A stretch of 64,000 bases of DNA. Source: Thermosediminibacter oceani DSM 16646 (lineage in GTDB: Bacteria; Bacillota; Thermosediminibacteria; Thermosediminibacterales; Thermosediminibacteraceae). Under the pieces are notes generated by a model that saw only the letters and a list, made by a program, of their open reading frames with translations, had not been told where the DNA came from and did no database searches. The translations under genes were made by a program, and so were the position numbers. This document shows, piece by piece, positions 17,988 to 47,625 of this stretch (its first letter is position 1; every line of letters begins with the position of its first letter). Where the stretch lies: NCBI RefSeq assembly GCF_000144645.1, contig NC_014377.1:744001-808000 (forward strand). Reading direction: 5' to 3'.

Positions 17988-19394
17988 TTGGAAAAAAATC
18001 AGGTTTTAAGAAAACTGCCCAAAGTCGGCGATCTCCTGGATGAAACTCCAATCAAAGATTTGATGGAAAAGTACGGCAAGTGGGCCGTGGTAAATGCCGT
18101 AAGGCGAAGTATAGATGAAATCAGGCGCTCGCTGGAAGAGTCCCTGGAAAGGGGCTTTGTCGATGTTGTAGAGGAAGAAGGCATGAAAAAAATAGCGGTA
18201 GAGCGGGCGCTCAGGCTCGTCGACGAGTACCGGTCCTATAACCTTAAAAAGGTTATCAACGCCACCGGGGTAGTGCTGCATACAAATCTAGGTAGAGCAC
18301 CGCTTCCGGAAGAGGCCCTGAAAAATATACTGGATGTGGCTTCGGGTTACTCCAATCTTGAATACGACCTGATGGAAGGTTCCAGGGGTGAGCGCTACGC
18401 CCACATAAGAGAACTTTTATGCGAAATAACCGGTGCTGAAGACACCATGGTTGTCAACAACAACGCCGGAGCGGTTTTACTTACGCTCTCTGCTTTGGCC
18501 GCAGGCAGGGAAGTGATAATCTCTAGAGGCCAGCTGGTGGAGATAGGGGGCAGTTTCAGGGTACCTGACGTAATGGCCCAGAGCGGTGCGAGGCTGGTGG
18601 AGGTGGGCACCACCAATAAAACTCATGTTGAGGACTACGAGAGGGCCATCAACGAAAACACCGCCCTTCTTTTGAAGGTCCACACCAGCAACTTCAGGTT
18701 TGTGGGATTCTGGTCTGAAGTGGCAATCGAACAGCTAAAAGCACTGGGGTTAAAATACGGTATACCAGTTATGGAAGATCTGGGTAGCGGAGTCCTGGTA
18801 GATGTAAGAAAATTTGGGCTTCCCCCGGAGCCTACAGTGCAGGAATCGATTCGGGCAGGGGCGGATATTGTTACTTTCAGCGGGGACAAACTGCTGGGCG
18901 GTCCCCAGGCAGGTATAATAGTGGGAAGGAAGGAGCTTCTCGAAAGGATCAAGCGACACCCTCTCACCCGGGCCCTACGCATAGACAAGCTTACCCTGAG
19001 CGCCCTGGAAGCGGTGCTGAAGCTTTATAGAAGCGAAAGTCTTGACCGGATTCCGGTGATAAAAATGCTTTCGAAGTCTCAGGAAGATATGGAAAAGGAT
19101 GCACGGCAGCTTGCAGCGGAGCTCCAAAAGGTGGTCCGGGAGCGCGGAACGGTGGAAATTATAGACGATGTATCCCAGGTGGGTGGAGGATCGCTGCCGG
19201 GAGCGGAACTTCCAACTAAAGCCGTAGCCCTGAGCCTTCGGGAAACGGGACCGGAAGAGCTGGCCGAAAGGTTGAGAAAGGCCCGGATTCCCGTAATAGG
19301 GAGGATAAAGAAGGATAGATTCCTGCTTGACGTGAGGACAATGTCGGAAGAAGACCTGAAGACAGCTGTAGAGATGGTGGGGAGCGTGTTATGA
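17988..19394 (+). CDS. selA: L-seryl-tRNA(Sec) selenium transferase
   Basis: 468 aa PLP enzyme converting Ser-tRNA(Sec) to Sec-tRNA(Sec) with selenophosphate. Conserved NATGVVLHTNLGRAPL, PLP-binding Lys region TFSGDKLLGGPQAGIIVG and GSGVLVD are present. TTG start after AAGGAGG. The end overlaps selB by 4 bp. With selB, tRNA-Sec and a UGA-containing fdhF in the same window the Sec route is functional by context; selD is not in this window. Confidence 0.96.
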   Translation: MEKNQVLRKLPKVGDLLDETPIKDLMEKYGKWAVVNAVRRSIDEIRRSLEESLERGFVDVVEEEGMKKIAVERALRLVDEYRSYNLKKVINATGVVLHTNLGRAPLPEEALKNILDVASGYSNLEYDLMEGSRGERYAHIRELLCEITGAEDTMVVNNNAGAVLLTLSALAAGREVIISRGQLVEIGGSFRVPDVMAQSGARLVEVGTTNKTHVEDYERAINENTALLLKVHTSNFRFVGFWSEVAIEQLKALGLKYGIPVMEDLGSGVLVDVRKFGLPPEPTVQESIRAGADIVTFSGDKLLGGPQAGIIVGRKELLERIKRHPLTRALRIDKLTLSALEAVLKLYRSESLDRIPVIKMLSKSQEDMEKDARQLAAELQKVVRERGTVEIIDDVSQVGGGSLPGAELPTKAVALSLRETGPEELAERLRKARIPVIGRIKKDRFLLDVRTMSEEDLKTAVEMVGSVL

Positions 19395-21397: not shown

Positions 21398-21492
21398 GGG
21401 AGTAGATAGGCCCTGGTGGGCCTTCTGGTCTTCAAAACCAGCATCGGGGGCAAAACCTCCGAGGTGGGTTCGATTCCCACATACTCCCGCCA
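21398..21492 (+). tRNA. selC: tRNA-Sec (anticodon TCA)
   Basis: 95 nt including encoded CCA (21490-21492). Acceptor GGGAGTA pairs with TACTCCC. The anticodon arm CTGGTCTTCAAAACCAG shows TCA in a CTTCAAA loop. There is a long variable arm (TCGGGGG...CCTCCGA) and T arm GTGGGTTCGATTCCCAC. Long extra arm and UCA anticodon identify tRNA-Sec. The eighth acceptor position of the bacterial form would be a G-A mismatch here. It lies just after selAB. Confidence 0.95.
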
Positions 21493-23164: not shown

Positions 23165-23968
23165 GTGGAGAAAAGATTTTTATCACCACAAGAGACTATC
23201 GATCTAACCATATCCAATGGAGTTAAAAAAGCAGCATTATCTTTTGAACAGATGTTGTTTTTGGGTATTTTGGCGGGAGTTTATATAGGATTTGGGGGAT
23301 TTGCCAGTATTATCATTATGCAGACTATGAAGAACATTGATGCAGGGTTAATGAAATTTGTTGGAGCAATGGTATTTCCCGTAGGACTAATGCTTGTTAT
23401 GGTTTGCGGCGCGGAACTTTTTACGGGCAACAACTTGATGGTGTTTGCAGTGCTGAGGAGGAAAATCACGGTAAATGCTCTCTTTAGAAATTGGGCTACC
23501 GTGTATCTTGCGAATTTTTTAGGGTCGGTAATTCTTGCGTTTTTAGTTTATAAAAGCGGCCTGCTGCAAGGAAATGTGTTATATTTAACTTTTTCAATTG
23601 CACAAAATAAAATTTTTCAAGATCTTATAGCACCTTTTATAAGAGGTATTCTATGCAATATATTGGTGGTTTTAGCAGTGTTCATGGCAACGGCGTCTCT
23701 GGATATAACTTCGAAGATATTCTCGTGTTGGTTTCCTATAATGCTCTTTGTGCTGTCGGGTTACGAACACAGCGTAGCCAATATGTTTTTCCTATCTTTA
23801 GCTAAATTCGGTGGAATGGATATAAACTGGGCGCAGATTTTCTTAAACAATCTTATTCCCGTTACTTTGGGGAATATCGTCGGCGGAGCTATTATCATAC
23901 CTTTTATGTATTTCCATGCTTACTTTGCTGAGGAGAAAAAGGATTATAAAATAAGATTAAATGGATAA
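23165..23968 (+). CDS. focA: Formate/nitrite transporter family channel
   Basis: 267 aa, six membrane helices, FNT family. Key pieces: AGVYIGFGGFASII (first re-entrant region), VCGAELFTGNNLMVF, RGILCNILVVLAVFMA and SGYEHSVANMF with the conserved central His (about residue 199). Likely moves formate, fitting the formate dehydrogenase 6 kb away; hydrosulfide or nitrite are alternatives. GTG start after AAAGGGG; single gene with own promoter and terminator. Confidence 0.9.
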   Translation: MEKRFLSPQETIDLTISNGVKKAALSFEQMLFLGILAGVYIGFGGFASIIIMQTMKNIDAGLMKFVGAMVFPVGLMLVMVCGAELFTGNNLMVFAVLRRKITVNALFRNWATVYLANFLGSVILAFLVYKSGLLQGNVLYLTFSIAQNKIFQDLIAPFIRGILCNILVVLAVFMATASLDITSKIFSCWFPIMLFVLSGYEHSVANMFFLSLAKFGGMDINWAQIFLNNLIPVTLGNIVGGAIIIPFMYFHAYFAEEKKDYKIRLNG

Positions 23969-28591: not shown

Positions 28592-30067
28592 TTGTGGGGC
28601 GATGAAATGTTAACGAAGAAAAATAGAGAAATAATAAAGCAAGTAGAATTAGTAAGCATCGATAGCCTGGTGCCTCAAGACCATCTCCTTAGAGCTGTAG
28701 AAGAAAGCATCGACTTTAGTTTCATATATGAAGAAGTAAAAGACCTATATAGCGAAAATACAGGAAGACCTAGTATTGACCCGGTAGTGTTAATTAAGCT
28801 ACTCATGCTCCAAGCATTGTATGGAATCCGCTCCATGCGCCAAACCATCAGAGAAGTAGAAGTCAATGTAGCTTACCGTTGGTTTTTAGGCTATGGATTA
28901 CAAGAAAAAATACCTCACTTTTCAACTTTTGGAAAAAACTATGAACGGCGGTTTAAGGAAAGTGATCTATTTGAAAAGATATTCGAGCGGGTGTTGATGG
29001 AAGCAATAGAATGCGGGTTTGTTAAAACAGATGCAGTATTTATCGATGCTACTCACATAAAAGCCAGTGCCAATAAGAATAAATATATCGAGAAAGTCGC
29101 TAAGCAACGGACTCAAAAATATAAGGAAGAACTTTTAAAAGAAATCAACGCCGAACGGGAAGCAAACGGTAAAAAGCCCTTTGAAGAAGAAGATGATGAT
29201 GACGATAACAACAAAGGAGAAAATAGCTCTAAAAAAGTCAGGGTAAGCACCACAGATCCTGAAAGTGGGATGTTTCAAAAAGGGGAAAAAGAGCGCTGCT
29301 TTGCCTACACAGCTTCTGTAGCCTGTGACCGGAACAACTTTGTCCTTGGTGTCAAAATAGCACCTGGAAATGTTCATGACAGCCAGGTATTCTCCGATTT
29401 ATTTCAAGAAGTAAACGATAAATTTTCTAAAATAGAGGCGGTAGTGGTTGATGCAGGCTACAAAACCCCCGGGATATGCAGAGAAATCATTGAGGCAGGA
29501 GCGCTTCCCGTTATGCCCTACAAGAGGCCGATGACCAAAGATGGCTACTTTAAAAAACGCGAATACGTCTATGACGAATATTATGATTGTTACATATGCC
29601 CCAACAACCAAATATTAGAATACAGCACCACCAACCGGGCGGGATACCGGGAATATAGGAGCAACCCCCAAATATGCTGTAAATGTCCCATGCGCCTACA
29701 GTGCACCAAAAGTAAAAATTACACAAAAATCATAACTCGGCATATATGGGAGCATTACATAGAAATAGCGGAAGATATAAGACACACCCAATGGGGTAAA
29801 GAACTATACAAAATGCGCGGCCAGACCATCGAGCGGGTATTTGCCGATGCGAAGGAAAAGCATGGCATGCGCTATACAAATCTACGAGGCTTGAGGAAAG
29901 TTGGACATTACCTCACGCTTCTTTTCGCATGCATGAATTTAAAAAAGCTGGCTTTATGGAAGAAAAGACGGGGAACGTTTCCGCCAACAGTCCCCGCTTT
30001 ACATTCGTTTTTCTTAAAAATTTTCTTCGCCTTCAACAAAAAGCCGCTTTTAGGTTATGCATCCTAA
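28592..30067 (+). CDS. IS1182-like DDE transposase
   Basis: 491 aa, intact. N-terminal DUF772 region (SFIYEEVKDLYSENTGRPSI, ALYGIRSMRQTIREVEVNVA, STFGKNYERRF). Catalytic part: first Asp in KTDAVFIDATHIKASANK, second in VVVDAGYKTPG, Glu in GQTIERVFADAKEKHGMRY. An acidic Glu/Asp-rich insertion sits at about 190-205 and a Cys-rich stretch at about 325-370 (CPNNQ, CCKCPMRLQC). The upstream ATG at 28607 (MLTKKNREIIKQ) could also be the start. Essentially identical to the partial copy at 1-747, so the element is probably active. Confidence 0.93.
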   Translation: MWGDEMLTKKNREIIKQVELVSIDSLVPQDHLLRAVEESIDFSFIYEEVKDLYSENTGRPSIDPVVLIKLLMLQALYGIRSMRQTIREVEVNVAYRWFLGYGLQEKIPHFSTFGKNYERRFKESDLFEKIFERVLMEAIECGFVKTDAVFIDATHIKASANKNKYIEKVAKQRTQKYKEELLKEINAEREANGKKPFEEEDDDDDNNKGENSSKKVRVSTTDPESGMFQKGEKERCFAYTASVACDRNNFVLGVKIAPGNVHDSQVFSDLFQEVNDKFSKIEAVVVDAGYKTPGICREIIEAGALPVMPYKRPMTKDGYFKKREYVYDEYYDCYICPNNQILEYSTTNRAGYREYRSNPQICCKCPMRLQCTKSKNYTKIITRHIWEHYIEIAEDIRHTQWGKELYKMRGQTIERVFADAKEKHGMRYTNLRGLRKVGHYLTLLFACMNLKKLALWKKRRGTFPPTVPALHSFFLKIFFAFNKKPLLGYAS

Positions 30068-30077
30068 AAGCGGCTTT
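30040..30077 (+). terminator. Terminator at the IS right end (copy 2)
   Basis: Same 15-bp stem as 720-757, overlapping the transposase stop codon. Confidence 0.75.
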
Positions 30078-30089
30078 GTCTACAAGCTG

Positions 30090-30243: not shown

Positions 30244-30459
30244 TTGTTTGTAATAGACAAGACCGAATGTATCGGCTGCGGTACGTGTTACAAGCTGTGC
30301 CCCTTCGATGCCATAGGGGAAAAGGAGGGCGGAGAAAAGCAGGTATATGAGATCAACGATGAGATGTGCATGGAATGTTCGCTGTGCTATAAAGCCTGCC
30401 CGCTTAGAGCGATAAATTGGGAAGAAGGTGTTTTAAAAGGCGGTGGTGCTATTGTTTAA
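30244..30459 (+). CDS. Two-[4Fe-4S] ferredoxin subunit (HycB-like)
   Basis: 71 aa with two Cys motifs, CIGCGTCYKLC and CMECSLCYKACP, each for a [4Fe-4S] cluster. TTG start. It overlaps fdhF by 17 bp and is followed by an [FeFe]-hydrogenase gene, so it is probably the electron-relay subunit between the two. It is much shorter than the four-cluster HycB proteins of known hydrogen-dependent CO2 reductases. Confidence 0.88.
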   Translation: MFVIDKTECIGCGTCYKLCPFDAIGEKEGGEKQVYEINDEMCMECSLCYKACPLRAINWEEGVLKGGGAIV

Positions 30460-32503
30460 ATATGTTAAAACAGTTTGCCCTTACTGCGGATGCGGTTGCG
30501 GGATAAACCTTCACGTGAAAAACGGCAAGATTGTCCGGACATCTCCGGCGGTCAAAGACTCAATAAACAAGGGGACGCTTTGCATTAAGGGAATGCTGGC
30601 CCATGAATTCGTGCATTCCCCTGAAAGGCTGAAAACTCCGCTTATCAAAGAAAACGGTGATTTCAGAGAAGCGACCTGGGATGAAGCCCTGGACATTGTC
30701 GCCAATAGATTCCGCAAGATAAAGGAAGAAAGCGGCGGTAACGCTATTGGCGTTTTAAGCTCGGCAAGAGCCACATGTGAAGAAAATTATCTGATGTCAA
30801 AATTTGCGAGAGCCGTTCTGGCTACCAACAACATAGACCACTGTGCCCGCCTCTGACACGCCCCCACTGTGGCCGGTCTGGCCAAGACAATGGGTGCTGG
30901 AGCGATGACAAACTCGATAGAAGAGATAACAGAAACCCAGGTTTTATTTGTGATAGGCTCGAATACTACGGAACAGCATCCGTTAATAGGTTCCCGCATA
31001 ATTGAAGCCGTAAAGAACGGAGCAAAGTTAATAGTGGCAGATCCAAGGAGGACGTACCTTGCCGAGAGGGCCTATGTTCACCTTTGCCTTTCGCCCGGTA
31101 CCGATACGGTTCTAATAAATGCCATGATGAATGTGATAATAGAAGACGGGCTTTTTGATGAAAATTTCATTGAAAAACGAACCGAAGGCTTTGAAGAGCT
31201 GAAACAGGATGTCCTGCAGTGGACGCCCGAAAGGGCAGAAAAGGTAACGGGTGTAAAGGCGGAAGATATACGGCGGGCTGCTCGCATTTACGCCGGGGCG
31301 GAAAGGGCTATGATTCTCTACTGCATGGGAATAACACAGCATAACTGCAGCACCGACAACGTAATCGCCCTGTCAAATCTGGTGTTGCTCACGGGCAATG
31401 TGGGAAGGCGCGGGACGGGTCTTTGCCCCTTGAGGGGCCAGAATAATGTCCAGGGAGCCTGCGATATGGGTGCGCTCCCCGATGTCCTCACCGGTTACCA
31501 GAAAGTGACAGACCCGAAGGTCCGCGAAAAATTTTCGAGAGCCTGGGGTGTTGAAATTCCGGATACTCCGGGATTGACTGTGCCTGAAATGTTTAAAGCC
31601 GCAGAAGAAGGAATAATCAAGGCTATGTATATAATAGGCGAAAACCCTGCAGTGAGTGAATCCAATCTCTCTCATGCAGAAAAAGCGCTTGCAGGCCTTG
31701 AATTCCTGGTGGTTCAGGACATATTCTTAACGGAAACTGCAAAATTTGCCGATGTGGTGCTCCCGGCCTGTTCCTTCGCAGAAAAGGATGGGACTTTCAC
31801 AACGACCGATCGCAGGGTCCAGAGACTGCGGAAGGCCATTGAACCCTTGGGAAATTCCAAACCGGACTGGCAGATCATAGTAGAGCTCGCTGCACGCATG
31901 GGTTATAACATGAATTACAAACATCCTTCCGAAATAATGGATGAAATCGCAAGCCTGACCCCATCTTACGGAGGAATATCCTATGACAGGTTGGAGGGCC
32001 CGGGCATTCAGGTACCATGTCCTGATAAGAATCATCCGGGGACACCTTACCTTCATAAGGACTCCTTTGCAAGAGGAAAGGGAAAATTCATCCCGGTAAA
32101 GTACACGCCCCCTGCTGAAAAGACCGATGAAGAATATCCGCTCGTGCTTACAACCGGGCGAGTGCTTTATCACTATCATACGGGCACTATGACGAGAAAA
32201 ATCGATTTCCTCAACCAAAAATGTCCCGGGCCTTTTGTTGAGATAAATCCTGTGGATGCGCAAAAGTTTGGGATTTCCAACGGCGATATGGTTTATATAA
32301 AGTCAAGAAGAGGAAGGATAAAAGCCCCCGCCAGGGTTACTGAAAAAATAAAACAGGGTGTCGTATTTGTACCCTTCCACTTCGCTGAAGCTGCTGCCAA
32401 TTATTTGACTATCGATGTACTGGATCCCGAAGCCAAGACGCCTCAATTAAAGGCTTGTGCTGTGAATATCTCCGCCGGGGGTGAAAAACATGGCGATAAT
32501 TGA
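30443..32503 (+). CDS. fdhF: Selenocysteine formate dehydrogenase, catalytic subunit
   Basis: 686 aa when the in-frame UGA at 30854-30856 is read as Sec; reading it as stop would split the gene at residue 137. The active-site context is DHCARL-Sec-HAPTVAG, the hallmark of Sec/Cys formate dehydrogenases, and a SECIS hairpin follows. N-terminal [4Fe-4S] ligands: CPYCGCGCGINLHVKNGKIV plus LCIKG. Molybdopterin (Mo/W) domains follow (LFVIGSNTTEQHPLIGSRII, LTGNVGRRGTGLCPLRGQNN, molydopterin-binding C-terminal domain from about 565). Reduces CO2 to formate or the reverse. Clustered with ferredoxin and [FeFe]-hydrogenase genes as in hydrogen-dependent CO2 reductase. Confidence 0.95.
30854..30890 (+). 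promoter_or_regulatory. UGA(Sec) codon and SECIS hairpin in fdhF
   Basis: UGA at 30854-30856. Thirteen nt downstream TGGCC (30870-30874) pairs with GGCCA (30880-30884) around loop GGTCT, the same loop sequence as the E. coli fdhF SECIS. It recruits SelB with Sec-tRNA. Confidence 0.9.
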
Positions 32504-34417: not shown

Positions 34418-35110
34418 TTAATGAGAAAGCCTCAATGTTTGGTAGTTGGTTTGCGCATTGTAATTATATCCTAGATGCGCGATATTCACTTTTTCTCCTC
34501 GATTGACAATGCAAAAATTATCATCGTAAGGGCCTGTTAACATTTTTTTAAGCAACCACAAATCACCCTTTTCTATGATTAGCTCTAACCCGGCAATTTC
34601 GGCAATTTTTTGAGCTTCATTCAAACAATCTGCCACGTTGTACGCTCCTGTATCTATAAGTATAAGTTTATTATAATTCTTTAGCATGTACCGGAAAATT
34701 TTTATGGCCTTTTCTTCCCCATAACGCTCTAAAGCATACTTGTAGTCCATCATGAAGCTTCTGGGACTATTTATCCAGCCTCTGGTAAGATAATAAGCAT
34801 CTTTTGAACGTTTAAGCTCTCCCGGTTTACTCAATAATAGGGAAATACAATCATCGGTTTTCGGAAAAATCAAATTTGCGGTAGAGGCTGTCAAACCCAA
34901 TATTGCATTGCCGCAAAAACCATATGCCAATATTATGTTGTCGACGTTTTTTTGAGAGTCGATTTCCTGCTGAAGCTTTGACCTCAAACGATCGGGGTCT
35001 AAATGGTATTCCGAGTCCAACCAGATGACGGGATATTCACAGCGCGTTTCCTTAATTGCCAGGTTTAATTCATCGTATATCGTCTGACAAGCTAGGACGA
35101 CAGTTTTCAC
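34418..35110 (-). CDS. DUF1638 family protein
   Basis: 230 aa, GTG start 10 nt after AGGAGTGAG. DUF1638 features: N-terminal VVLACQTIYDELNLA, then IILAYGFCGNAILGLTA, CISLLL, YYLTRGWI, LILIDTGAYN and a C-terminal GDLWLLKKMLTGPYDDNF. The function is unknown; the family is found near corrinoid methyltransferase genes in methanogens and acetogens. It lies at the edge of such an island here, and an internally deleted copy survives at about 45280-45350. A role in methyl-group or corrinoid handling is inference. Confidence 0.8.
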   Translation of the reverse strand: MKTVVLACQTIYDELNLAIKETRCEYPVIWLDSEYHLDPDRLRSKLQQEIDSQKNVDNIILAYGFCGNAILGLTASTANLIFPKTDDCISLLLSKPGELKRSKDAYYLTRGWINSPRSFMMDYKYALERYGEEKAIKIFRYMLKNYNKLILIDTGAYNVADCLNEAQKIAEIAGLELIIEKGDLWLLKKMLTGPYDDNFCIVNRGEKVNIAHLGYNYNAQTNYQTLRLSH

Positions 35111-35245
35111 CGGTTTCTCACTCCTTAAATTCTTAGGTTATCCTGCTCTTTACACGGCTGTTCTCGCAATTATTTACGACGGAGGCACTTACGATGATAA
35201 ATGGTATCTCCTTCAATAAAAGTCTTGCTCTTACATTTTTTGGGC

Positions 35246-35325
35246 GAGCCATATTCTCCCCGTTGTGAAAGGTCTTGTTGGGAGGTTGGCTCTTTAATTT
35301 TTACTTAACTTTTTTTTTACACATT
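35246..35325 (+). repeat. Hairpin repeat R1
   Basis: GAGCCA (35246-35251) pairs with TGGCTC (35287-35292) and CTCCC with GGGAG inside, then a T-rich tract. The same design occurs at 40503-40570 (R2) and 45365-45440 (R3). R1 and R2 share loop GGTCTTGTT and a TTTTTACACA tail. R2 sits where a plus-strand terminator is expected. Confidence 0.55.
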
Positions 35326-35454: not shown

Positions 35455-35690
35455 CTAAAAATAGCAATAAAATATATTTTTGTATTCTTCAATCAAAAAT
35501 AATGATAAATTAAAATTCAAAAACACTTGACAATTCAGTCGAACTCGTATATACTAGTATTAAAACATGTATATACATCTTTTTAAGAATTTTTACTAAA
35601 AGTCTCCGCAAAGGGGGCGATAGTGTACATTAGGATCGACAAGACAATTTTAAAGTTGGAAAGTATTACGTACTACAAAGCCGCTCCAGA
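35455..35690 (+). repeat. Duplicated methyltransferase-operon leader, copy 1
   Basis: Diverged direct copy of about 36845-37085: both contain a TTGACA/TTGATA promoter, GTCGAAC in the spacer, an ATGTATATACAT palindrome and an AGGGGGCGATAGT segment. Copy 1 now leads into the IS110 remnant, not a gene. Confidence 0.7.
35527..35578 (+). promoter_or_regulatory. Promoter P1 with candidate operator
   Basis: TTGACA (35527-35532), 17-nt spacer, TATACT (35550-35555); the perfect palindrome ATGTATATACAT at 35567-35578 covers the start region. No intact gene follows. Confidence 0.65.
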
Positions 35691-36775: not shown

Positions 36776-36841
36776 GTGACCCTAGACCAACCCAATTTAA
36801 AATTTTCGCCAAGGCACGGAACATGTTTTCATGGCACCTGA
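36776..36841 (+). other. 21-codon ORF behind a near-perfect ribosome site
   Basis: AGGAGGTGAT (36762-36771), an unusually full anti-16S match, precedes GTG 36776; the ORF (TLDQPNLKFSPRHGTC...) stops at 36839. It may be the broken start of another transposase or gene, cut by the duplicated leader. Not recognised. Confidence 0.3.
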
Positions 36842-36844
36842 AAT

Positions 36845-37085
36845 AGATATAATAGGCAATTTTGATTCTTCAAATAAAAATAATAATAAATCAAATACTG
36901 AAAATACTTGATAATCCGGTCGAACTAGTATATGCTTAAGATATGTATATACATCTTTTTTCTGAAGTTTTAATAACGGGGCCTTGAAGGGGGCGATAGT
37001 AGTACATAGGTCGGTAAAAGCGAATATAAAGTTGAAGGGCATTATGTATTTATGAGGATTAAAAAAATACAGTAATTGTGAAATT
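36845..37085 (+). repeat. Duplicated methyltransferase-operon leader, copy 2
   Basis: Diverged direct copy of about 35455-35690 (see there). This copy leads into the intact corrinoid-protein gene at 37120. Confidence 0.7.
36908..36954 (+). promoter_or_regulatory. Promoter P2 with candidate operator
   Basis: TTGATA (36908-36913), 17-nt spacer, TATGCT (36931-36936), and palindrome ATGTATATACAT (36943-36954). Drives the methyltransferase operon starting at 37120. Confidence 0.7.
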
Positions 37086-37119: not shown

Positions 37120-37758
37120 ATGATAAATTTAGATGAGTTAAAAAAGGCAGTCGGCGAATTGGATGAGGAAAAGGTAAAGCAAATGCTTACGGAGTTCGTT
37201 GAATCAAATCCCACCGAAGAGGAAGCACAGAAAATAGTTGTCGCATGTCAGGAAGGAATGGGAATAGTAGGAGACCTGTTCGAAAAAGGCGAATACTTTG
37301 TGGGTGACCTTATTTTCGCCGGAGAACTGCTTACGGAAGCCATCAATGTCCTAAAATCTGTCATAGGTGGTAAAAGTGCGCAGAAGGTAGGCACAATAGT
37401 ACTGGGCACGGTTCACGGCGATTTGCACGACATCGGCAAAAATATATTCCGCAGTATGGCCGAGGCTGCTGGATTTGAGGTGTACGATTTGGGGATCGAC
37501 CAGCCGGTGAGCGCCTTTGTGGAAAAGGTAAAGGAAGTCAAACCGGATATAGTGGGAATGAGCGGGGTTCTCACGCTCGCCATAGAATCCATGAAGGCCA
37601 CGGTGGAAGGGCTAAAGCAAGCCGGTTTGAGAGATAAAGTCAAGATTATAATCGGGGGCAATCCCGTGACAAAAGAAGCCTGCGAATACGTAGGAGCCGA
37701 TGCCTTTACGACCAACGCCGCGGAAGGCGTTAAAATATGTCAGGGGTGGGTGAAATAA
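37120..37758 (+). CDS. Corrinoid (B12-binding) methyl-carrier protein
   Basis: 212 aa. N-terminal helical B12-binding-2 cap (about 1-85), then the cobalamin-binding Rossmann domain with the base-off/His-on motif GTVHGDLHDIGKNI (His ligand in DLHDIG, about residue 105), SGVLTLAIESM and IIGGNPVTKEACEYVGADAF. Related to MtbC/MttC/MtvC carriers. It overlaps nothing; the UroD-type methyltransferase gene starts immediately after its stop, so it is the likely methyl acceptor. GAGGAGG precedes the ATG. Confidence 0.93.
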   Translation: MINLDELKKAVGELDEEKVKQMLTEFVESNPTEEEAQKIVVACQEGMGIVGDLFEKGEYFVGDLIFAGELLTEAINVLKSVIGGKSAQKVGTIVLGTVHGDLHDIGKNIFRSMAEAAGFEVYDLGIDQPVSAFVEKVKEVKPDIVGMSGVLTLAIESMKATVEGLKQAGLRDKVKIIIGGNPVTKEACEYVGADAFTTNAAEGVKICQGWVK

Positions 37759-39114
37759 ATGACAGATGTGAAAGCATTGCAGCAGGAAAGAATAAGCATA
37801 TATCAAGATGTCTACAACGATAAAATTCCAAAGAGAGTGCCTGTAAATATAGGCCTTCCATTTGAGGTTATAGCCCAGTTCGGCGGTCTGGACCTTTGTG
37901 AAGCCCAGTGGAATCCGGCCATTGTTGAAGAAGCCGTTGACAAAATATGCCAGACGGTATACTCGGACATATGCGTCTTTATGGGATCTATGAGATATCC
38001 TTCTTTCTATGAAATACTAAAGTCCCAGTCCTTTCGAATGGCTTCAAACGGATTTATCCAGCATCCCGAAGTAACGGGTATGTTTCCGGAAGACTATGAC
38101 TATCTAATTGAAAATCCTTATGACTGCCTTCTCGAAAGGGTTATTCCGAGACAGTACAAAGCGTTTAATCCGGAAGATCCCATAAATTGCGCAATTAATT
38201 TAGCTAAAAGTATATTGGCGTACAACGACGATTTTATGCAATCGGGAATAATCATAAAGAAAATGGAAGAAAAATACGGATATTATCCCGGGGGATTATT
38301 TTCGGGCGGTTTTACGGAAGCTCCATTTGATTTTTTGTCAGATCAACTAAGGGGTTTCAAAGGAATCAGCATGGATATAAGGAGAATGCCCGATAAAGTG
38401 GCGGCAGCCTGCGACGCTCTCTATCCGATAGTATTCAAAATGGGCTTACCACCGGCAAATTCAAACCAGATATTTATCCCCTTGCACATGCCGCCATTTA
38501 TGAGGGAAAAGGATTTTGAAAAATTATACTGGCCGAGTTTCAAGAGGCTGCTGGATGAATATGCATCAATGGGTATTCACTGCATCTTATTCTGTGAGCA
38601 CGATTGGACGAGATACCTTGATTATCTTTATGAACTTCCGACCGATACGATTCTATGGTTCGAATACGGTGATCCGAAGGTTATAAAAGAAAAGCTGGGC
38701 AAGAAGCACATAATTACGGGTCTTTATCCAGTAATGAATCTTAAGACCAAAACGAAGGAAGAATGCGTAGAGGAAGTCAAGAGGTACATCGATATCCTTG
38801 CTCCGGGCGGCAAATATATATTTAACTTCGATAAGACTCCTCTGCTGTATGGTGATATTAAATTAGAATGCCTGTGTGCGGTGGCCGAAACCGTAAGGGA
38901 TTACGCCGTTTACAGCAATGCGGGTGAAACTGCCGGTATGGTATTTAATAAAGAAGATTATAAAGTGGAACCTTCAAGAAAATTCGAAAGCAAATACTAT
39001 AAGACCTGGGAGCAATACAAGGCGTTGAACCCAGAAGTTTCGGATTTCGGCAGGCCGAAACTTGAGAACCTTGAAGAAACTATTTTCCATTATTTGATGT
39101 TCCTTCTCGTATAA
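37759..39114 (+). CDS. UroD-family methyltransferase (substrate:corrinoid, MT1-like)
   Basis: 451 aa, COG0407-type uroporphyrinogen-decarboxylase-like barrel. Segments: RVPVNIGLPFEVIAQFGGLD (N-terminus), YGYYPGGLFSGGFTEAPFDF, IPLHMPPFMREKDFEKLYWP, MGIHCILFCEHDWTRYLDYL (where zinc-type His/Cys ligands may lie) and ILAPGGKYIFNFDKTPL. Size and gene order beside a corrinoid protein and an MFS carrier resemble methoxyaromatic O-demethylases (MtvB/VdmB/MtoB type). The substrate cannot be set from sequence; methylated amines, thiols or glycols remain possible. Confidence 0.85.
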   Translation: MTDVKALQQERISIYQDVYNDKIPKRVPVNIGLPFEVIAQFGGLDLCEAQWNPAIVEEAVDKICQTVYSDICVFMGSMRYPSFYEILKSQSFRMASNGFIQHPEVTGMFPEDYDYLIENPYDCLLERVIPRQYKAFNPEDPINCAINLAKSILAYNDDFMQSGIIIKKMEEKYGYYPGGLFSGGFTEAPFDFLSDQLRGFKGISMDIRRMPDKVAAACDALYPIVFKMGLPPANSNQIFIPLHMPPFMREKDFEKLYWPSFKRLLDEYASMGIHCILFCEHDWTRYLDYLYELPTDTILWFEYGDPKVIKEKLGKKHIITGLYPVMNLKTKTKEECVEEVKRYIDILAPGGKYIFNFDKTPLLYGDIKLECLCAVAETVRDYAVYSNAGETAGMVFNKEDYKVEPSRKFESKYYKTWEQYKALNPEVSDFGRPKLENLEETIFHYLMFLLV

Positions 39115-40665: not shown

Positions 40666-41319
40666 ATGAAGAATCTAATAAGTGTAGAAGAATCGATAAT
40701 AAAGGCGGTAGAAGAATTGAATGAAACGAAAGTTATTAGGTTGGCGAGCAAAGCGCTGAATGCAGGCATGGATCCGCTGTTCTTGCTAGATTTAATAAAA
40801 GAAGGCGTAAAAAGAGTGGGGAAATTATATGAGGATCAAAAATATTTTATAGCTGATTTAATTATGGCCGGTCTTATTTTTAAAGAGGTTTTGGAATTGG
40901 AAAAAATGAAATTAAAATTCCAGAGAAAGAGTAATGAGATATTGGGAAGGGTGATAGTGGGAACGGTCAAGGGTGATTTGCATGATATTGGGAAAGAAAT
41001 TTTTGAAGGCCTGATGAAGGCGAACGGGTTTGAAGCCATTGACCTGGGGGTAGATGTATCGAAAGAGGTGTTCACTAAAAGCGTCATTAAGTACAAACCC
41101 GATATTGTAGCATTAAGCGGTGTTCTAACGTCCACTATAGACTCGATGAAGGAGATTGTAGATGCATTGGTTGAAGCTGGAGTAAGAAACGATGTTAAGA
41201 TTATTTTGGGTGGAAGTCATTTAACGAAGGAAGCCTGCGATTATATAGGTGCTGATTTTTACACAAATGATGCTTCTGAAGGTGTCAGACTGTGTAAACA
41301 AATGCTTGGGAAAATATGA
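40666..41319 (+). CDS. Second corrinoid methyl-carrier protein
   Basis: 217 aa. Same architecture as 37120: helical cap (1-85), B12-binding motif GTVKGDLHDIGKEIFEGL, SGVLTSTIDSM and ILGGSHLTKEACDYIGADFY. Clearly paralogous but diverged from the first. No dedicated substrate methyltransferase is beside it; the next gene is the GntR regulator, starting 19 bp downstream. It may serve a methyltransferase encoded elsewhere or share the local one. Confidence 0.92.
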   Translation: MKNLISVEESIIKAVEELNETKVIRLASKALNAGMDPLFLLDLIKEGVKRVGKLYEDQKYFIADLIMAGLIFKEVLELEKMKLKFQRKSNEILGRVIVGTVKGDLHDIGKEIFEGLMKANGFEAIDLGVDVSKEVFTKSVIKYKPDIVALSGVLTSTIDSMKEIVDALVEAGVRNDVKIILGGSHLTKEACDYIGADFYTNDASEGVRLCKQMLGKI

Positions 41320-41338
41320 TGGGGTGCGGTGGGATAAT

Positions 41339-42085
41339 ATGCGGTTGCCTATCTATCTTAAAATTGCCAAAGATATTAAAGAAAAAATAAAAAACGGCGA
41401 ACTTAAGCCGGGAGACGCTATCTATTCCGAAAATACTTTATGTAAGACATATAAAGCCAGCCGTATGACGGTCAGGAGAGGGCTGGCATTGCTTGCCAAT
41501 GAAGGTTATATATATTCTATTCCCGGGAAAGGAAATTTTGTTCGAGAGCCGGATAATAATATCTATACACTGTATTACGATGAAATGAAAAATTTTATCA
41601 GCAGTGTTGATAAAACAAAACTTTTGGAAGTCAATATAATTTTGCCTAACTATAAATTAATGAATAGTTTACAGATCACAAAGAATAAGAAAGTAGTTGT
41701 AATCAGGAGGCTCTTTTTTACTGAGGGAGAACCTGTAGCTTACGATGTAAAATACCTGCCTTATTGTAAGGGGTTGCCGATTGTCGAAAAAGAAATACGG
41801 TATGCAACTTTTCCAGAGATGGTTGCAAAAAACACCTCGCTTTTTGCGATAAAAAAAGAGCTTATAATTTACGCTCAAATTCCTGACGAGGAAACGAAAA
41901 AGTATCTCAATATATATAACGAGTTACCTTTAATGGTGGTGGAGCAGAAACTCTATAATAGAGAAGGAAAGCCGATCGGGTTGGGAATAACGTATTTCAG
42001 GGGGGATTACTGCAAGCTGTATGCCGAATCGTATTTTTCTGAAAGCAAAATAAGTGAAAAATACAAAAACCAGGCTGAAACTTGA
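41339..42085 (+). CDS. GntR/HutC-family transcription regulator with UTRA domain
   Basis: About 248 aa. N-terminal winged helix (LPIYLKIAKDIKEKIKNGEL, SENTLCKTYKASRMTVRRGL, IPGKGNFVRE), then a UTRA ligand-binding domain (about 85-240; VVVIRRLFFTEGEPVAYDVK, LMVVEQKLYNREGKPIGLGI). ATG 41339 (MRLPIYLK) is chosen since it starts the domain. HutC-type regulators usually repress until a small ligand binds. Candidate sites are the ATGTATATAC palindromes at 35567, 36943 and 44189; the ligand may be the methyl donor. Confidence 0.9.
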   Translation: MRLPIYLKIAKDIKEKIKNGELKPGDAIYSENTLCKTYKASRMTVRRGLALLANEGYIYSIPGKGNFVREPDNNIYTLYYDEMKNFISSVDKTKLLEVNIILPNYKLMNSLQITKNKKVVVIRRLFFTEGEPVAYDVKYLPYCKGLPIVEKEIRYATFPEMVAKNTSLFAIKKELIIYAQIPDEETKKYLNIYNELPLMVVEQKLYNREGKPIGLGITYFRGDYCKLYAESYFSESKISEKYKNQAET

Positions 42086-42107: not shown

Positions 42108-43928
42108 TTAACGGTATGAATTATTACACTTTGAGAAATTCAAATTTTTAAGGTACTCCTTCTGGAAATATGGATTTGTAGCTAACTCTATATGCGTTAC
42201 CTTTCTTTGAATATCGTAGGTTTTTTCGCGAATTTCTTTAGACAACATGAAAAGTTGTACTCCAGCCCCTGCTGCATTGCCTATGGAACGGGTCGGAACG
42301 CCCCAAGAAGGCAAAAGGCCAATATATTGCCCCTTTTCAATGTCGATATAATTGCCGAAAGCTCCGGCAATGAGAATTTCCTTGAGCTGTTCCGGTTTAA
42401 TTCCATATTCCTGAACTAAAAGGTTACACCCGGTGTATATGGCTGATTTTGCCAGCTGAACAGCCCGAATATCTTTTTGAGTGATATATATCTTTTGGCC
42501 GTTTTGAGACTGTTCTTCGGTAGCGAGAATGAAGCAATTTATACCGTCTATTGTTTCCAACCGGTCTGCCAGTCCTCTGTATTCCGGAGGGCATGTATTG
42601 AGATATTCTTCTTTTTTCAGCAGTTTTCCAGTCTCCGTAATAATACCAACCCTCAGCATTTCCGCCACTGCGTCGATTAATCCGGAACCACAGATACCGG
42701 TGGGCTTACCACCGCCTATTACTTTAATGGCAATGTTTCCGTTTTGAAGATTTACCCTCTCTATAGCCCCGGTGGTTCCCCGCATACCGAACTGTATCCC
42801 GCCTCCCTCTAGAGCCGGTCCTGCAGCCGTTGAAGCGGCGAGCATTCTGTCTTTGTTTCCGATGACGATTTCGCCATTTGTTCCCAAATCTATTATCAAT
42901 CGATATCCGAGATGATCGGTTTCGGGGAGAGAAAGTAATACTGCTAAAGTATCAGCGCCTACAAAACCTCCGATCAGGGGCAAGAAGTATACGATTGCGT
43001 TAGGATTTATGTTTATATTAAGCTGTTTTGCTTTCGTAACGACACCGCTCGTTGTGGTGCTGGTAAACGGGGATTTACCAAGAAACTCGGGATTTAAACC
43101 CAAAAACAAGTGCTGCATCGTAGAGTTTCCGCAGAGAGCAACGTAATAAATATCACCGTTATCGATATGGTGTTCGTTCACGGCCTGTTCGACTAATTGA
43201 TTGATCGTGTCTAAGATTTTCTCCTGAAGTTTTGCCAGGCCACCGGGATTATTTATGCAAGCGAGGATTCTTGTAATTACATCGGCACCTTCGGAAACCT
43301 GACCGTTTAATGCCGAATAAATACCCATCCTTTCTCCCGTGTGAAGATTGTATAAATATGCTACTACCGTTGTGGTGCCAACGTCTATGGCAAAACCGTA
43401 TAAGTCTTTTTCGGTGTTGTTTACGTCCAGGTCTAGCAGCTCGTTGTGCCAATAAGTGAGTGTGATACCGCTTATATCCTGCTTGTGCAAAATATTTGAT
43501 AATTTTTGAAGCAATTCCAGTGAAGGAGTTTTTATATCGACATTCAATAAATTATTTATGTTTTCCCAATCACCCGAACAGGGAGGGGTTTTGAGGGATT
43601 CTTTTTCTATATAAACTTTTTTTACGGCAGGGTCAAATTCGACAGGTATAAGATCGCCTTCTGTCAGAATATTGACCTTTTTATTTATCTGATCTCTCTT
43701 CAACAGTATTATTAGCTCATCGCTCACTTTTTCCTGGCATGCTAGAACCTCTTTTGTTTCCCCGTTTTTGACAATTTCCACTTTGCATTTTCCGCAGGTC
43801 CCCCTGCCTCCGCAAACCTGATCCAGTGGAAAACCTGCAAAGGCGCAAGCGGATGCAATTGTTTCGCTTTCGCCAATCATAATTGTTTTGTTTAGATTTG
43901 GGAAATGGACCCTGACCTTTTTAGCCAG
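42108..43928 (-). CDS. Reductive activator of corrinoid proteins, copy 1 (RACo)
   Basis: About 606 aa. N-terminal [2Fe-2S] ferredoxin domain with ligands Cys39, 45, 48 and 64 (VCGGRGTCGKC, LACQ), a linker, then an ASKHA-type ATPase domain (GFAIDVGTTTVVAYLYNLHT, LIIDLGTNGEIVIGN, AAGPALEGGGIQFGMRG, ILIAGAFGNYIDIEKGQYIG), the DUF4445 family. RACo uses ATP to re-reduce inactive Co(II) corrinoid. The true start is probably CTG 43928: AGGGGAG (43935-43941) precedes it by 6 nt and it restores the first beta strand (KKVRVHFPNL). The first ATG (43880) would cut that strand. Copy 2 is 45427-47235. Confidence 0.93.
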   Translation of the reverse strand: MAKKVRVHFPNLNKTIMIGESETIASACAFAGFPLDQVCGGRGTCGKCKVEIVKNGETKEVLACQEKVSDELIILLKRDQINKKVNILTEGDLIPVEFDPAVKKVYIEKESLKTPPCSGDWENINNLLNVDIKTPSLELLQKLSNILHKQDISGITLTYWHNELLDLDVNNTEKDLYGFAIDVGTTTVVAYLYNLHTGERMGIYSALNGQVSEGADVITRILACINNPGGLAKLQEKILDTINQLVEQAVNEHHIDNGDIYYVALCGNSTMQHLFLGLNPEFLGKSPFTSTTTSGVVTKAKQLNININPNAIVYFLPLIGGFVGADTLAVLLSLPETDHLGYRLIIDLGTNGEIVIGNKDRMLAASTAAGPALEGGGIQFGMRGTTGAIERVNLQNGNIAIKVIGGGKPTGICGSGLIDAVAEMLRVGIITETGKLLKKEEYLNTCPPEYRGLADRLETIDGINCFILATEEQSQNGQKIYITQKDIRAVQLAKSAIYTGCNLLVQEYGIKPEQLKEILIAGAFGNYIDIEKGQYIGLLPSWGVPTRSIGNAAGAGVQLFMLSKEIREKTYDIQRKVTHIELATNPYFQKEYLKNLNFSKCNNSYR

Positions 43929-44021
43929 AAGAATCTCCCCTTTCGGACAGATACTTTTTATTTTTACAATCTTACTCTAATATTATCAAATTTCAGCCGA
44001 AAGTCAAAATTATTATTTTTT
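42164..44021. repeat. 1.86-kb direct repeat, copy A (RACo block)
   Basis: Matches 45471-47328 at a fixed offset of 3307. The encoded proteins are identical through ATNPYFQ and the non-coding leader also matches. Sequences diverge sharply outside. Confidence 0.9.
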
Positions 44022-44145
44022 GCTTTTCCAGAAAGATAATTAAAAAGTGCTTAAAATCCGTTAGTGCAATGTAGAAAAAATTTCGGACCCTTCATTTAAT
44101 CTAGAACATTATAGCAGAATAATTACAATTTCAAAATGAATTACA

Positions 44146-44204
44146 TTGACAAATATTAAAAAATGTGTTAACTTAAATCAAAGAATATACATGTATATAC
44201 TAGT
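44146..44204 (+). promoter_or_regulatory. Promoter P3 with candidate operator
   Basis: TTGACA (44146-44151), 17-nt spacer, TAACTT (44169-44174); palindrome ATATACATGTATAT at 44185-44198 with CATGTATATAC shared with P1. Drives the pterin methyltransferase gene. Confidence 0.6.
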
Positions 44205-44344
44205 TTGGTTTATTTTCTATCAGGGTGCATTTTGCGCAGGTCTGGCGGATAAATCTTCTGGCTGTAATATGTAAGGTGCCCGGAGGGGACCGTTCTGAAA
44301 ACAGCAAATTATAAAAATTTAATATAAAAAGGGGGAGAACAAAC

Positions 44345-45160
44345 ATGATTATAATTGGAGAAAAAATCAACGGTACAATTCCGCGTGTCAAAAAGGCTAT
44401 AGAAGAAAGAGATGAAGCTTTTATTCGCGATCTTGCCGTTAAACAGGCAGAAGCAGGCGCCGATTACATCGATGTGTGTGCGGGGACAGCCCCGGAGGTA
44501 GAGGAAGAAACTTTAAAATGGCTGATGGAAATTGTCCAGGATGCGGTTGACAAACCTCTATGTATTGACAGCCCAAATCCTAAAACCATAGAGCATGTAT
44601 TAAAATATGCGCAGCAGCCCGGAATAATAAATTCGGTATCCGAAGAAAGGAATAAATGCGAAATTATATACCCCCTGATAAAAGGTACCCAATGGCAGGT
44701 CATCGGGCTTACTTGTGATAATAGAGGAATTCCTTCGGACGTCCAGACAAGGATAGATATAGCAAAAATACTTGTTGAAAAGGCCCAAAAATATGATATT
44801 AGCCCCGAGCGGATACATATAGATCCCCTGGTCATGGCACTAGCGACTGATAACCAATCGGTGCAGAAGTTTGTCGAAACATTGGTCAGTATAAAAAAGA
44901 TCTTTCCAAACGTCAAGGTCACTTCGGGATTAAGCAATGTTTCTTTCGGCATGCCCTTGAGAAAAGTGATCAATCAAGCCTTCTTAACTGTAGCGATCTT
45001 TGCAGGAATGGATTCAGCCATCATGGATCCGTGCAATAGAGAAATGATGACAACGCTGCTGGCGGCCGAAGCAATAGCAGGCCAGGATAGACATTGCAGA
45101 AAATTCTCTAATGCGTATCGAAAAGGATTGATTGGTCCTAATAAAGACGCTGCACGCTGA
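44345..45160 (+). CDS. Pterin-binding methyltransferase (corrinoid:THF, MT2-like)
   Basis: 271 aa TIM barrel of the MeTr/MtrH/DHPS class. IIIGEKINGTIPRVKKAI at the N-terminus, GADYIDVCAGTAPEVEEE (pterin-site Asp), PLCIDSPNPKTIEH, IINSVSEERNKCE and VTSGLSNVSFGMPLRKVINQ (Asn in the GLSNVS motif). It is homologous to AcsE (62328) but distinct. It would pass methyl from a corrinoid carrier to tetrahydrofolate. It has its own promoter with the island operator; a deleted copy is at 47473-47620. Confidence 0.9.
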   Translation: MIIIGEKINGTIPRVKKAIEERDEAFIRDLAVKQAEAGADYIDVCAGTAPEVEEETLKWLMEIVQDAVDKPLCIDSPNPKTIEHVLKYAQQPGIINSVSEERNKCEIIYPLIKGTQWQVIGLTCDNRGIPSDVQTRIDIAKILVEKAQKYDISPERIHIDPLVMALATDNQSVQKFVETLVSIKKIFPNVKVTSGLSNVSFGMPLRKVINQAFLTVAIFAGMDSAIMDPCNREMMTTLLAAEAIAGQDRHCRKFSNAYRKGLIGPNKDAAR

Positions 45161-45209
45161 TGTAAATTAAAAGCAAGGTATGTGTAATCGAAAAGGATTA
45201 TTAAAGAAA

Positions 45210-45235
45210 CGGGGGAGGAATAGCTGCCTCCCCCG
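45210..45235. terminator. Hairpin after MT2, copy of 34359-34384
   Basis: Stem GGGGGAGG / CCTCCCCC with loop AATAGCTG. It and the following 100 bp repeat the 3' flank of the DUF1638 gene. Confidence 0.6.
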
Positions 45236-45279
45236 GGGCTGACTCCTTGGCTCCATTAAAGGGTAGAACCCTTAAAGAG

Positions 45280-45350
45280 AGAGCTTTAGTGTATGGTAGT
45301 TGGTTTGCTCATATTGTAAGTTTTCACCGGTTTCTCACTCCTGTAACTTT
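45280..45350 (-). pseudogene. Internally deleted DUF1638 gene
   Basis: On the minus strand the ribosome site, GTG start and first codons (AGGAG, then GTGAAAACT) match 35108-35128. They join directly to the last codons of the gene (TACAAT...CAAACCAACTACC, matching about 34435-34460). About 600 bp is missing, leaving a roughly 12-codon ORF. The 3' and 5' flanks are still recognisable. Confidence 0.75.
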
Positions 45351-45364
45351 ATTAAGATATCCGG

Positions 45365-45440
45365 TAGCGAGCCATATTCTCCCCGCTGTGTAATATTATG
45401 GGGAGGATGGCTCGCTAAGTTTTTATTTAACTTTTTCTTG
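45365..45440 (+). repeat. Hairpin repeat R3
   Basis: TAGCGAGCCAT (45365-45375) pairs with ATGGCTCGCTA (45407-45417), with inner CTCCCC / GGGGAG, then TTTTTATTTAACTTTTT. Same family as R1 and R2; a plus-strand terminator by its T-tract. Confidence 0.6.
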
Positions 45441-47235
45441 AGAATTTCATATTTCTAACGAATTCATTTTGGAAATATGGATTTGTAGCTAACTCTATAT
45501 GCGTTACCTTTCTTTGAATATCGTAGGTTTTTTCGCGAATTTCTTTAGACAACATGAAAAGTTGTACTCCAGCCCCTGCTGCATTGCCTATGGAACGGGT
45601 CGGAACGCCCCAAGAAGGCAAAAGGCCAATATATTGCCCCTTTTCAATGTCGATATAATTGCCGAAAGCTCCGGCAATGAGAATTTCCTTGAGCTGTTCC
45701 GGTTTAATTCCATATTCCTGAACTAAAAGGTTACACCCGGTGTATATGGCTGATTTTGCCAGCTGAACAGCCCGAATATCTTTTTGAGTGATATATATCT
45801 TTTGGCCGTTTTGAGACTGTTCTTCGGTAGCGAGAATGAAGCAATTTATACCGTCTATTGTTTCCAACCGGTCTGCCAGTCCTCTGTATTCCGGAGGGCA
45901 TGTATTGAGATATTCTTCTTTTTTCAGCAGTTTTCCAGTCTCCGTAATAATACCAACCCTCAGCATTTCCGCCACTGCGTCGATTAATCCGGAACCACAG
46001 ATACCGGTGGGCTTACCACCGCCTATTACTTTAATGGCAATGTTTCCGTTTTGAAGATTTACCCTCTCTATAGCCCCGGTGGTTCCCCGCATACCGAACT
46101 GTATCCCGCCTCCCTCTAGAGCCGGTCCTGCAGCCGTTGAAGCGGCGAGCATTCTGTCTTTGTTTCCGATGACGATTTCGCCATTTGTTCCCAAATCTAT
46201 TATCAATCGATATCCGAGATGATCGGTTTCGGGGAGAGAAAGTAATACTGCTAAAGTATCAGCGCCTACAAAACCTCCGATCAGGGGCAAGAAGTATACG
46301 ATTGCGTTAGGATTTATGTTTATATTAAGCTGTTTTGCTTTCGTAACGACACCGCTCGTTGTGGTGCTGGTAAACGGGGATTTACCAAGAAACTCGGGAT
46401 TTAAACCCAAAAACAAGTGCTGCATCGTAGAGTTTCCGCAGAGAGCAACGTAATAAATATCACCGTTATCGATATGGTGTTCGTTCACGGCCTGTTCGAC
46501 TAATTGATTGATCGTGTCTAAGATTTTCTCCTGAAGTTTTGCCAGGCCACCGGGATTATTTATGCAAGCGAGGATTCTTGTAATTACATCGGCACCTTCG
46601 GAAACCTGACCGTTTAATGCCGAATAAATACCCATCCTTTCTCCCGTGTGAAGATTGTATAAATATGCTACTACCGTTGTGGTGCCAACGTCTATGGCAA
46701 AACCGTATAAGTCTTTTTCGGTGTTGTTTACGTCCAGGTCTAGCAGCTCGTTGTGCCAATAAGTGAGTGTGATACCGCTTATATCCTGCTTGTGCAAAAT
46801 ATTTGATAATTTTTGAAGCAATTCCAGTGAAGGAGTTTTTATATCGACATTCAATAAATTATTTATGTTTTCCCAATCACCCGAACAGGGAGGGGTTTTG
46901 AGGGATTCTTTTTCTATATAAACTTTTTTTACGGCAGGGTCAAATTCGACAGGTATAAGATCGCCTTCTGTCAGAATATTGACCTTTTTATTTATCTGAT
47001 CTCTCTTCAACAGTATTATTAGCTCATCGCTCACTTTTTCCTGGCATGCTAGAACCTCTTTTGTTTCCCCGTTTTTGACAATTTCCACTTTGCATTTTCC
47101 GCAGGTCCCCCTGCCTCCGCAAACCTGATCCAGTGGAAAACCTGCAAAGGCGCAAGCGGATGCAATTGTTTCGCTTTCGCCAATCATAATTGTTTTGTTT
47201 AGATTTGGGAAATGGACCCTGACCTTTTTAGCCAG
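45427..47235 (-). CDS. Reductive activator of corrinoid proteins, copy 2 (RACo)
   Basis: About 602 aa from the CTG start at 47235 (AGGGGAG 6 nt upstream), which corresponds to 43928 in copy 1. It is identical to copy 1 through ATNPYFQ, including the four [2Fe-2S] Cys and all ATPase motifs. Only the last 13 or so residues differ (NEFVRNMKFSRKS against KEYLKNLNFSKCNNSYR), where the repeat ends. Both copies look functional. Duplication may raise dosage or let the C-termini diverge towards different carriers. Confidence 0.92.
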   Translation of the reverse strand: MAKKVRVHFPNLNKTIMIGESETIASACAFAGFPLDQVCGGRGTCGKCKVEIVKNGETKEVLACQEKVSDELIILLKRDQINKKVNILTEGDLIPVEFDPAVKKVYIEKESLKTPPCSGDWENINNLLNVDIKTPSLELLQKLSNILHKQDISGITLTYWHNELLDLDVNNTEKDLYGFAIDVGTTTVVAYLYNLHTGERMGIYSALNGQVSEGADVITRILACINNPGGLAKLQEKILDTINQLVEQAVNEHHIDNGDIYYVALCGNSTMQHLFLGLNPEFLGKSPFTSTTTSGVVTKAKQLNININPNAIVYFLPLIGGFVGADTLAVLLSLPETDHLGYRLIIDLGTNGEIVIGNKDRMLAASTAAGPALEGGGIQFGMRGTTGAIERVNLQNGNIAIKVIGGGKPTGICGSGLIDAVAEMLRVGIITETGKLLKKEEYLNTCPPEYRGLADRLETIDGINCFILATEEQSQNGQKIYITQKDIRAVQLAKSAIYTGCNLLVQEYGIKPEQLKEILIAGAFGNYIDIEKGQYIGLLPSWGVPTRSIGNAAGAGVQLFMLSKEIREKTYDIQRKVTHIELATNPYFQNEFVRNMKFSRKS

Positions 47236-47328
47236 AAGAATCTCCCCTTTCGGACAGATACTTTTTATTTTTACAATCTTACTCTAATATTATCAAATTT
47301 CAGCCGAAAGTCAAAATTATTATTTTTT
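45471..47328. repeat. 1.86-kb direct repeat, copy B (RACo block)
   Basis: Partner of 42164-44021. Orientation is the same, separated by 1.45 kb holding MT2, so recombination between copies would delete MT2. Confidence 0.9.
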
Positions 47329-47399
47329 CATTATAGAGTGATCCGGCATTTTTTGCTGAAAACTATCGCAGAATAGTTTCGATTTAAAAATGAAGAACA

Positions 47400-47428
47400 T
47401 TGACAAATATTTAAAAATGTGTTAACTT
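47400..47428 (+). promoter_or_regulatory. Promoter P4 (copy of P3 without the operator)
   Basis: TTGACA (47400-47405), 17-nt spacer, TAACTT (47423-47428). Same promoter as P3, but the palindrome is replaced by unrelated sequence. It now reads into a decayed MT2 and the amidohydrolase gene. Confidence 0.6.
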
Positions 47429-47472
47429 AAAAATGAATGAATGATATGGATCTATTATAAACTTTATGTATT

Positions 47473-47620
47473 CACACCCAAATCTTAAAACCATATAGCA
47501 GTTATAGTAAAAGGTACCTAATGGCAGTCATTGGGCTTACTTGTGATAATAGGGCTTTTAAGGCAATAGCAGGGGAGAAAAACAAGCGGAAGATGCATAT
47601 CGAAGGGGTTTGATCGGTTC
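47473..47620 (+). pseudogene. Collapsed remnant of the MT2 gene
   Basis: Four separated pieces of the 44345-45160 gene are joined in order: CCCAAATCTTAAAACCATA (like 44574-44592), AAAAGGTACC...GGGCTTACTTGTGATAATAG (44680-44730), GGCAATAGCAGG (about 45068-45080) and GCATATCGAAGGGGTTTGAT (about 45114-45133). At least three internal deletions. It abuts the amidohydrolase start. Confidence 0.8.
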
Positions 47621-47625
47621 TAAAT

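Follow-up and report, generated by a model that had tools for sequence, protein, structure and literature searches.

Probable recent homogenisation of two old RACo paralogues in Thermosediminibacter oceani

In methanogens, mtrA-1 and mtrA-2 undergo concerted evolution by gene conversion (PMC4632066, in the text available), and 26 prokaryotic genes, including mtmB, mtmC, mtbB, mtbC and mtrA, are described as subject to long-lasting concerted evolution (PMC6053082, likewise in the text available). Here we report on two RACo genes, designated A and B, in a stretch of 64,000 nucleotides (nt) of the genome of the deep-sea thermophile Thermosediminibacter oceani DSM 16646 (contig NC_014377.1, positions 744,001 to 808,000); this stretch is the window, and all coordinates below refer to it unless stated otherwise. 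RACo-type proteins perform the ATP-dependent reduction of corrinoid cobalt. The two genes are most likely (a probability of roughly 0.85) old paralogues that were recently homogenised over the gene body and promoter, by gene conversion or an equivalent form of recombination.

Identical gene bodies between diverged tails and flanks

RACo gene A (42108 to 43880, minus strand; 590 amino acids from the listed ATG) and RACo gene B (45427 to 47187, minus strand; 586 amino acids from the listed ATG) are arranged head to tail, 3.3 kb apart. They share a block that spans 42163 to 44021 in copy A and 45470 to 47328 in copy B, both on the minus strand, and that constitutes the longest exact self-match at an offset of 3307. 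Each copy of the block comprises the RACo gene from its last shared codon up to the listed ATG, together with the 141 nt that precede it, and a search of the organism's own genome, a single contig of 2,280,035 base pairs, returned 100% matches at exactly two places, both in the window. An earlier, sequence-only reading of this DNA had reported the match at constant offset, its left edge lying one base short, and had proposed counting the nucleotide differences; the count is 0/1859. The same reading had noted that the proteins are identical up to ATNPYFQ and then abruptly diverge, and the translations agree: this motif is followed by KEYLKNLNFSKCNNSYR in copy A and by NEFVRNMKFSRKS in copy B.

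The identity extends to silent positions, with no silent change over 572 shared codons containing 392.7 silent sites. Among the 743 polymorphic columns in an alignment of the two T. oceani copies with two relatives (G003 and G022), the run of columns in which A and B agree reaches 550, versus a maximum of 86 in 10,000 permutations; none of the 10,000 shuffles attained a run of 550, which excludes chance. The true start of both proteins is probably a CTG situated 16 codons 5′ of the listed ATG (at 43928 in A and 47235 in B), judging from the sequence, and the codon at this upstream position is CTG in G003, TTG in G022, G009 and G021, and ATG in G011. Just within the block lies a promoter-like site for RACo, TTGACT-16-TAATAT (43980 to 44007 in A and 47287 to 47314 in B, minus strand), which is a consensus match only, the 17 promoter-like matches in the region being hardly above the shuffle mean of 14.7.

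Beyond the block, in-register identity between the copies falls to 151 of 254 nt upstream and 82 of 156 nt on the tail side, such that the flanks are only partly alignable. The upstream flank includes the MT2 promoter region of copy A (44086 to 44177, plus strand), which is 80% identical to its diverged paralogous counterpart beside copy B (47340 to 47431, plus strand). The tails (42108 to 42162 in A and 45427 to 45469 in B, minus strand) differ from one another at 14 of 40 coding nucleotides, whereas the tail of A differs at only 2/40 from the decayed RACo of a genome of the same genus (G001), and that of B differs at only 3/40 from the RACo of another genus of the same family (G003). The tails of A and B therefore have separate orthologues in these genomes, and the two paralogues diverged before the G001 and G003 lineages did. 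In approximately unbiased (AU) tests on the tail, the five trees tested with A and B as a pair were all rejected (p 0.0005 to 0.0007), and both trees that place A and B apart were retained. Two hallmarks of gene conversion are present: a homogenised tract flanked on both sides by diverged homologous sequence, and a phylogenetic conflict between the tail, as judged by the AU test, and the block, as judged by its identity. A transient expansion and contraction of an array would leave the same trace as non-reciprocal transfer, and it is the latter that we infer.

Origin of the shared block

The gene orders of related genomes suggest how such a pair could arise. In G003, the order is DUF1638-RACo-amidohydrolase-FTHFS, and RACo is not separated from the amidohydrolase by an MT2; G022, G009 and G021 each have one RACo, located between GntR and MT2 and followed by FTHFS; and G001 contains a RACo remnant, GntR, both corrinoid proteins, the UroD gene and DUF1638. 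Because these orders hold the surroundings of A and B apart, the two appear to be separate units that were brought together. Copy A would have belonged to a methyltransferase cassette (corrinoid protein, GntR regulator, RACo and MT2) and copy B to a DUF1638-RACo-amidohydrolase locus, and the cassette and the locus would have come to sit head to tail at their spacing of 3.3 kb. Recent homologous recombination would then have written one gene body and promoter over the other copy, yielding 1859 identical nt, with each copy retaining its own last 13 to 17 codons and its outer flank. T. oceani B differs from G003 at 147 of 398 silent sites (silent divergence, dS, 0.51). With none changed in the block, the 95% upper limit on silent change between A and B is, by our own arithmetic, about 3/393 sites, which under a steady clock amounts to roughly 1.5% of the silent distance that separates T. 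oceani from G003.

If RACo had recently been duplicated in tandem and its tails and flanks had changed later, perfect identity at close head-to-tail spacing would also result, but this is improbable: the flanks differ at 35 to 47% of aligned sites and the block at none, and a new duplicate would not bear an old paralogous tail with an orthologue in another genome. Of the two explanations given in the sequence-only reading, a recent duplication and ongoing gene conversion, the old tails and flanks leave conversion standing.

That reading also rightly raised the prospect of an assembly artefact. Differing copies could have been merged, or only a single copy could exist. Single 454 and Illumina reads are too short to span the block, and the assembly was made with Newbler, Velvet and phrap (PMC3035372, in the text available). 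However, the same source describes an 8-kb Sanger library at 5.3x coverage and repeat finishing with Dupfinisher, and because the repeated unit is 3.3 kb and the library 8 kb, clone ends can place both copies. Moreover, there are four distinct flank junctions, and the two loci exist separately in two related genomes, so both are expected. Merging could mask only small differences, which would leave the similarity of the copies far above that of their flanks, and we consider a pure artefact unlikely.

It is scarcely credible that strong purifying selection could by itself account for the likeness of the two genes. RACo is constrained, T. oceani B and G003 giving a ratio of nonsilent to silent divergence (dN/dS) of 0.095, but the identity of the copies also takes in silent sites and the non-coding sequence at the 5′ end of the block, and silent sites drift freely between species. 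The earlier suggestion that selection or conversion acts on RACo is not borne out as regards selection, because purifying selection cannot hold 392.7 silent sites and a promoter identical; nor is selection needed to explain the identity, given that the block spans silent sites and the promoter and ends near the limit of homology.

Several considerations weigh against the homogenisation of old paralogues. Only one genome holds both copies, with no population or sister-strain replicate, and a few real differences may have been lost to merging during assembly. The AU test on the tail is inflated by non-coding columns past the stop codon, where the contexts of A and B differ; the count over 40 coding nucleotides is cleaner evidence, but short. 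Tests of the direction of transfer conflict: the core tree groups T. oceani with G003 at 86% ultrafast bootstrap, but the AU value of the alternatives is 0.09 (490 columns), and polarised sites divide 8 versus 5 (p 0.58), or 7 versus 7 with G022 alone as the outgroup, and 4 versus 2 in a looser set of columns. These tests are limited by the shortness of the G001 pseudogene, for which 585 of the 1859 core columns can be aligned and 490 were used, and by the distance of the outgroups; the tree leans only slightly toward B having been written over A.

Homogenisation might also have a longer history. The G001 and G003 genes differ at 13 of 40 tail positions, but at only 76 of 490 core positions (Fisher p 0.013, uncorrected), which hints at earlier rounds; the excess in the tail is not seen in the same-type pairs A-G001, B-G003 and G009-G021, and it may stem from homogenisation that took place earlier, or just from a shift in constraint on the B tail. 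In G001, RACo A (L122, at the start of the contig, 1495 to 2037 there) is cut to fragments matching residues 338 to 468, 537 to 553 and 556 to 590. It is tempting, if rather doubtful, to suppose that conversion rescued a dying gene: A would have been decaying in the genus, as it has in G001, until B restored its reading frame, and previous rounds would have maintained the likeness of the cores from a time before the genera parted. By eye, the G001 fragments adjoin an open reading frame resembling the protein encoded at 23165 to 23968 of the window.

Within G001, no orthologue of B was found, its amidohydrolase adjoining a different RACo with 42% identity to the query, and the G001 contig begins near the A locus, which limits what the non-occurrence of MT2 there means. 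Of 80 loci found in genome contigs, the sole close relative was L037, at 89%, which is the G003 match; the other 79, at 29 to 37% identity, were not used. In two overlapping sets, one of 61 genomes and one of 26 (out of 120 sought from the class), T. oceani itself was the only genome with this RACo type in two intact copies, and inspection of the hit lists by eye revealed no other genome with two close matches of this type in tandem, identity between matches of other RACo types lying outside this comparison.

Gene neighbourhood and predicted function

In T. oceani, the genes are ordered DUF1638, a B-type RACo tail trace, corrinoid protein, UroD-type methyltransferase, MFS transporter, corrinoid protein, GntR, RACo A, MT2, DUF1638 remnant, RACo B, MT2 remnant and amidohydrolase. 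The intact DUF1638 gene (34418 to 35110, minus strand; PF07796, 161 bits) adjoins the tail trace (35244 to 35317, minus strand), a third vestige of RACo that is 82.7% identical to 45367 to 45439. It has a remnant between the two RACo genes (45207 to 45362, minus strand), in which both gene ends are present and the middle is deleted. The intact MT2, a pterin-binding methyltransferase located between RACo A and RACo B (44345 to 45160, plus strand), matches the methyltransferase of PDB entry 4o0q, deposited as a dihydropteroate synthase, with an E value of 2.9e-125. Beside RACo B, self-comparison detects a second MT2 as three pieces (about 47424 to 47623, plus strand) that match 44509 to 44605, 44679 to 44724 and 45111 to 45141. 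Both flanking genes are therefore heavily decayed in their second copies, as the first reading had observed. The DUF1638 gene and RACo tail would have been duplicated along with the units, with one set decaying thereafter. The direct repeat formed by the RACo genes predicts the loss of the intervening MT2 by recombination.

Domain searches identified two corrinoid proteins (40666 to 41319 and 37120 to 37758, both plus strand), the former being one likely client of an activator, and a GntR/UTRA regulator adjoining copy A (41249 to 42085, plus strand). The MT1-like methyltransferase of the UroD superfamily (37759 to 39114, plus strand) has CdmB as its only solved relative by sequence (E 1.2e-21), a protein placed beside O-demethylases and haloalkane methyltransferases (PMC13222342, in the text available). 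Upstream of MT2, the palindrome TATACATGTATA (44186 to 44197) occurs once in the window; it also occurs once per stretch, 5′ of MT2, in four relatives with an intact MT2 near RACo (L118, L119, L120 and L121), and is absent from the L117 and L122 stretches. The 15-mer GTATATACATGTATA matches the 2.28-Mb genome exactly at a single position. From these sequence comparisons, TATACATGTATA is a good candidate for the operator of the neighbouring GntR-type regulator. A 73% direct repeat (35459 to 35672 and 36841 to 37048) lies 5′ of the first corrinoid protein gene in this order and matches sequence 5′ of the corrinoid protein genes of relatives; it is perhaps a duplicated promoter or leader.

Both RACo copies contain the RACo linker, middle and C-terminal ASKHA domains (RACo_linker, Raco_middle and RACo_C_ter), with scores in copy A of 46 bits for PF17650, 181 for PF17651 and 268 for PF14574, all above cut-off, and the genome as a whole has four RACo C-terminal domains. 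Residues 2 to 577 of copy A align with residues 17 to 614 of the solved protein 3zyy, named an iron-sulfur cluster binding protein by its depositor, over nearly its full length (E 5.5e-86). At the N terminus, VCGGRGTCGKC and LACQ align with the four cysteines of 3zyy, as expected of a 2Fe-2S ferredoxin-like domain, and two glycine-rich ATPase motifs are also aligned; Pfam Fer2 is detected in copy B only, under its cut-off (19.4 versus 21). The scores against AcsV (NCBIfam NF040756; 382.4 bits versus a curated cut-off of 800) and the NCBIfam model of RamA (129 bits versus 500) are so far under the cut-offs that the RACo copies fall in neither named subfamily. By analogy with their family and neighbours, both genes should encode nearly the same ATP-dependent reductive activator, converting Co(II) to Co(I) on the corrinoid proteins of the neighbouring methyltransferases, a role that the domain assignments of these corrinoid proteins fit. 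The likely functional effect would be two doses of one activator, that is, more of the same protein.

Elsewhere in the window, a molybdopterin oxidoreductase (formate-dehydrogenase-like) gene appears as two adjoining open reading frames (30443 to 32503), and a SelB gene (19391 to 21310) and tRNA-Sec (21398 to 21492) are also present; from inspection by eye, we take the split gene to be probably one selenoprotein read through TGA. A 769-nt repeat of 99.87% identity (1 to 769 and 29321 to 30089) overlaps a transposase gene (28592 to 30067) and represents an insertion sequence.

Comparison with described cases

As corrinoid activating enzymes, the two proteins resemble 3zyy in their full-length match, four cysteines and ATPase motifs and lie far below the NCBIfam cut-offs for AcsV and RamA. 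No report of gene conversion in RACo or other corrinoid activators was found among the literature matches listed, as judged by title; the kind of event is already known, and the RACo case is new as far as this search shows. What it illustrates is that diverged flanks can reveal two identical genes as old and recently overwritten, so identity must not be taken for recent duplication.

As in the genes under long-lasting concerted evolution, paralogues within this species are closer than orthologues between species. However, five species are required there (PMC6053082, in the text available), against one genome here, and neither table in the available text lists a corrinoid activator. The nearest parallel is with mtrA-1 and mtrA-2 (PMC4632066, in the text available), which are likewise tandem paralogues from corrinoid methyl transfer, with a homogenised domain in common and distinct C-termini. 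In that case, homogenisation has recurred over very long periods in two orders, and the C-termini form membrane domains that differ from each other, whereas RACo presents one event in one genome, short tails of 13 to 17 residues, and an activator rather than a corrinoid carrier. With this pair, a corrinoid activator would join the short list of homogenised prokaryotic paralogues, several of which already belong to corrinoid methyl-transfer pathways.

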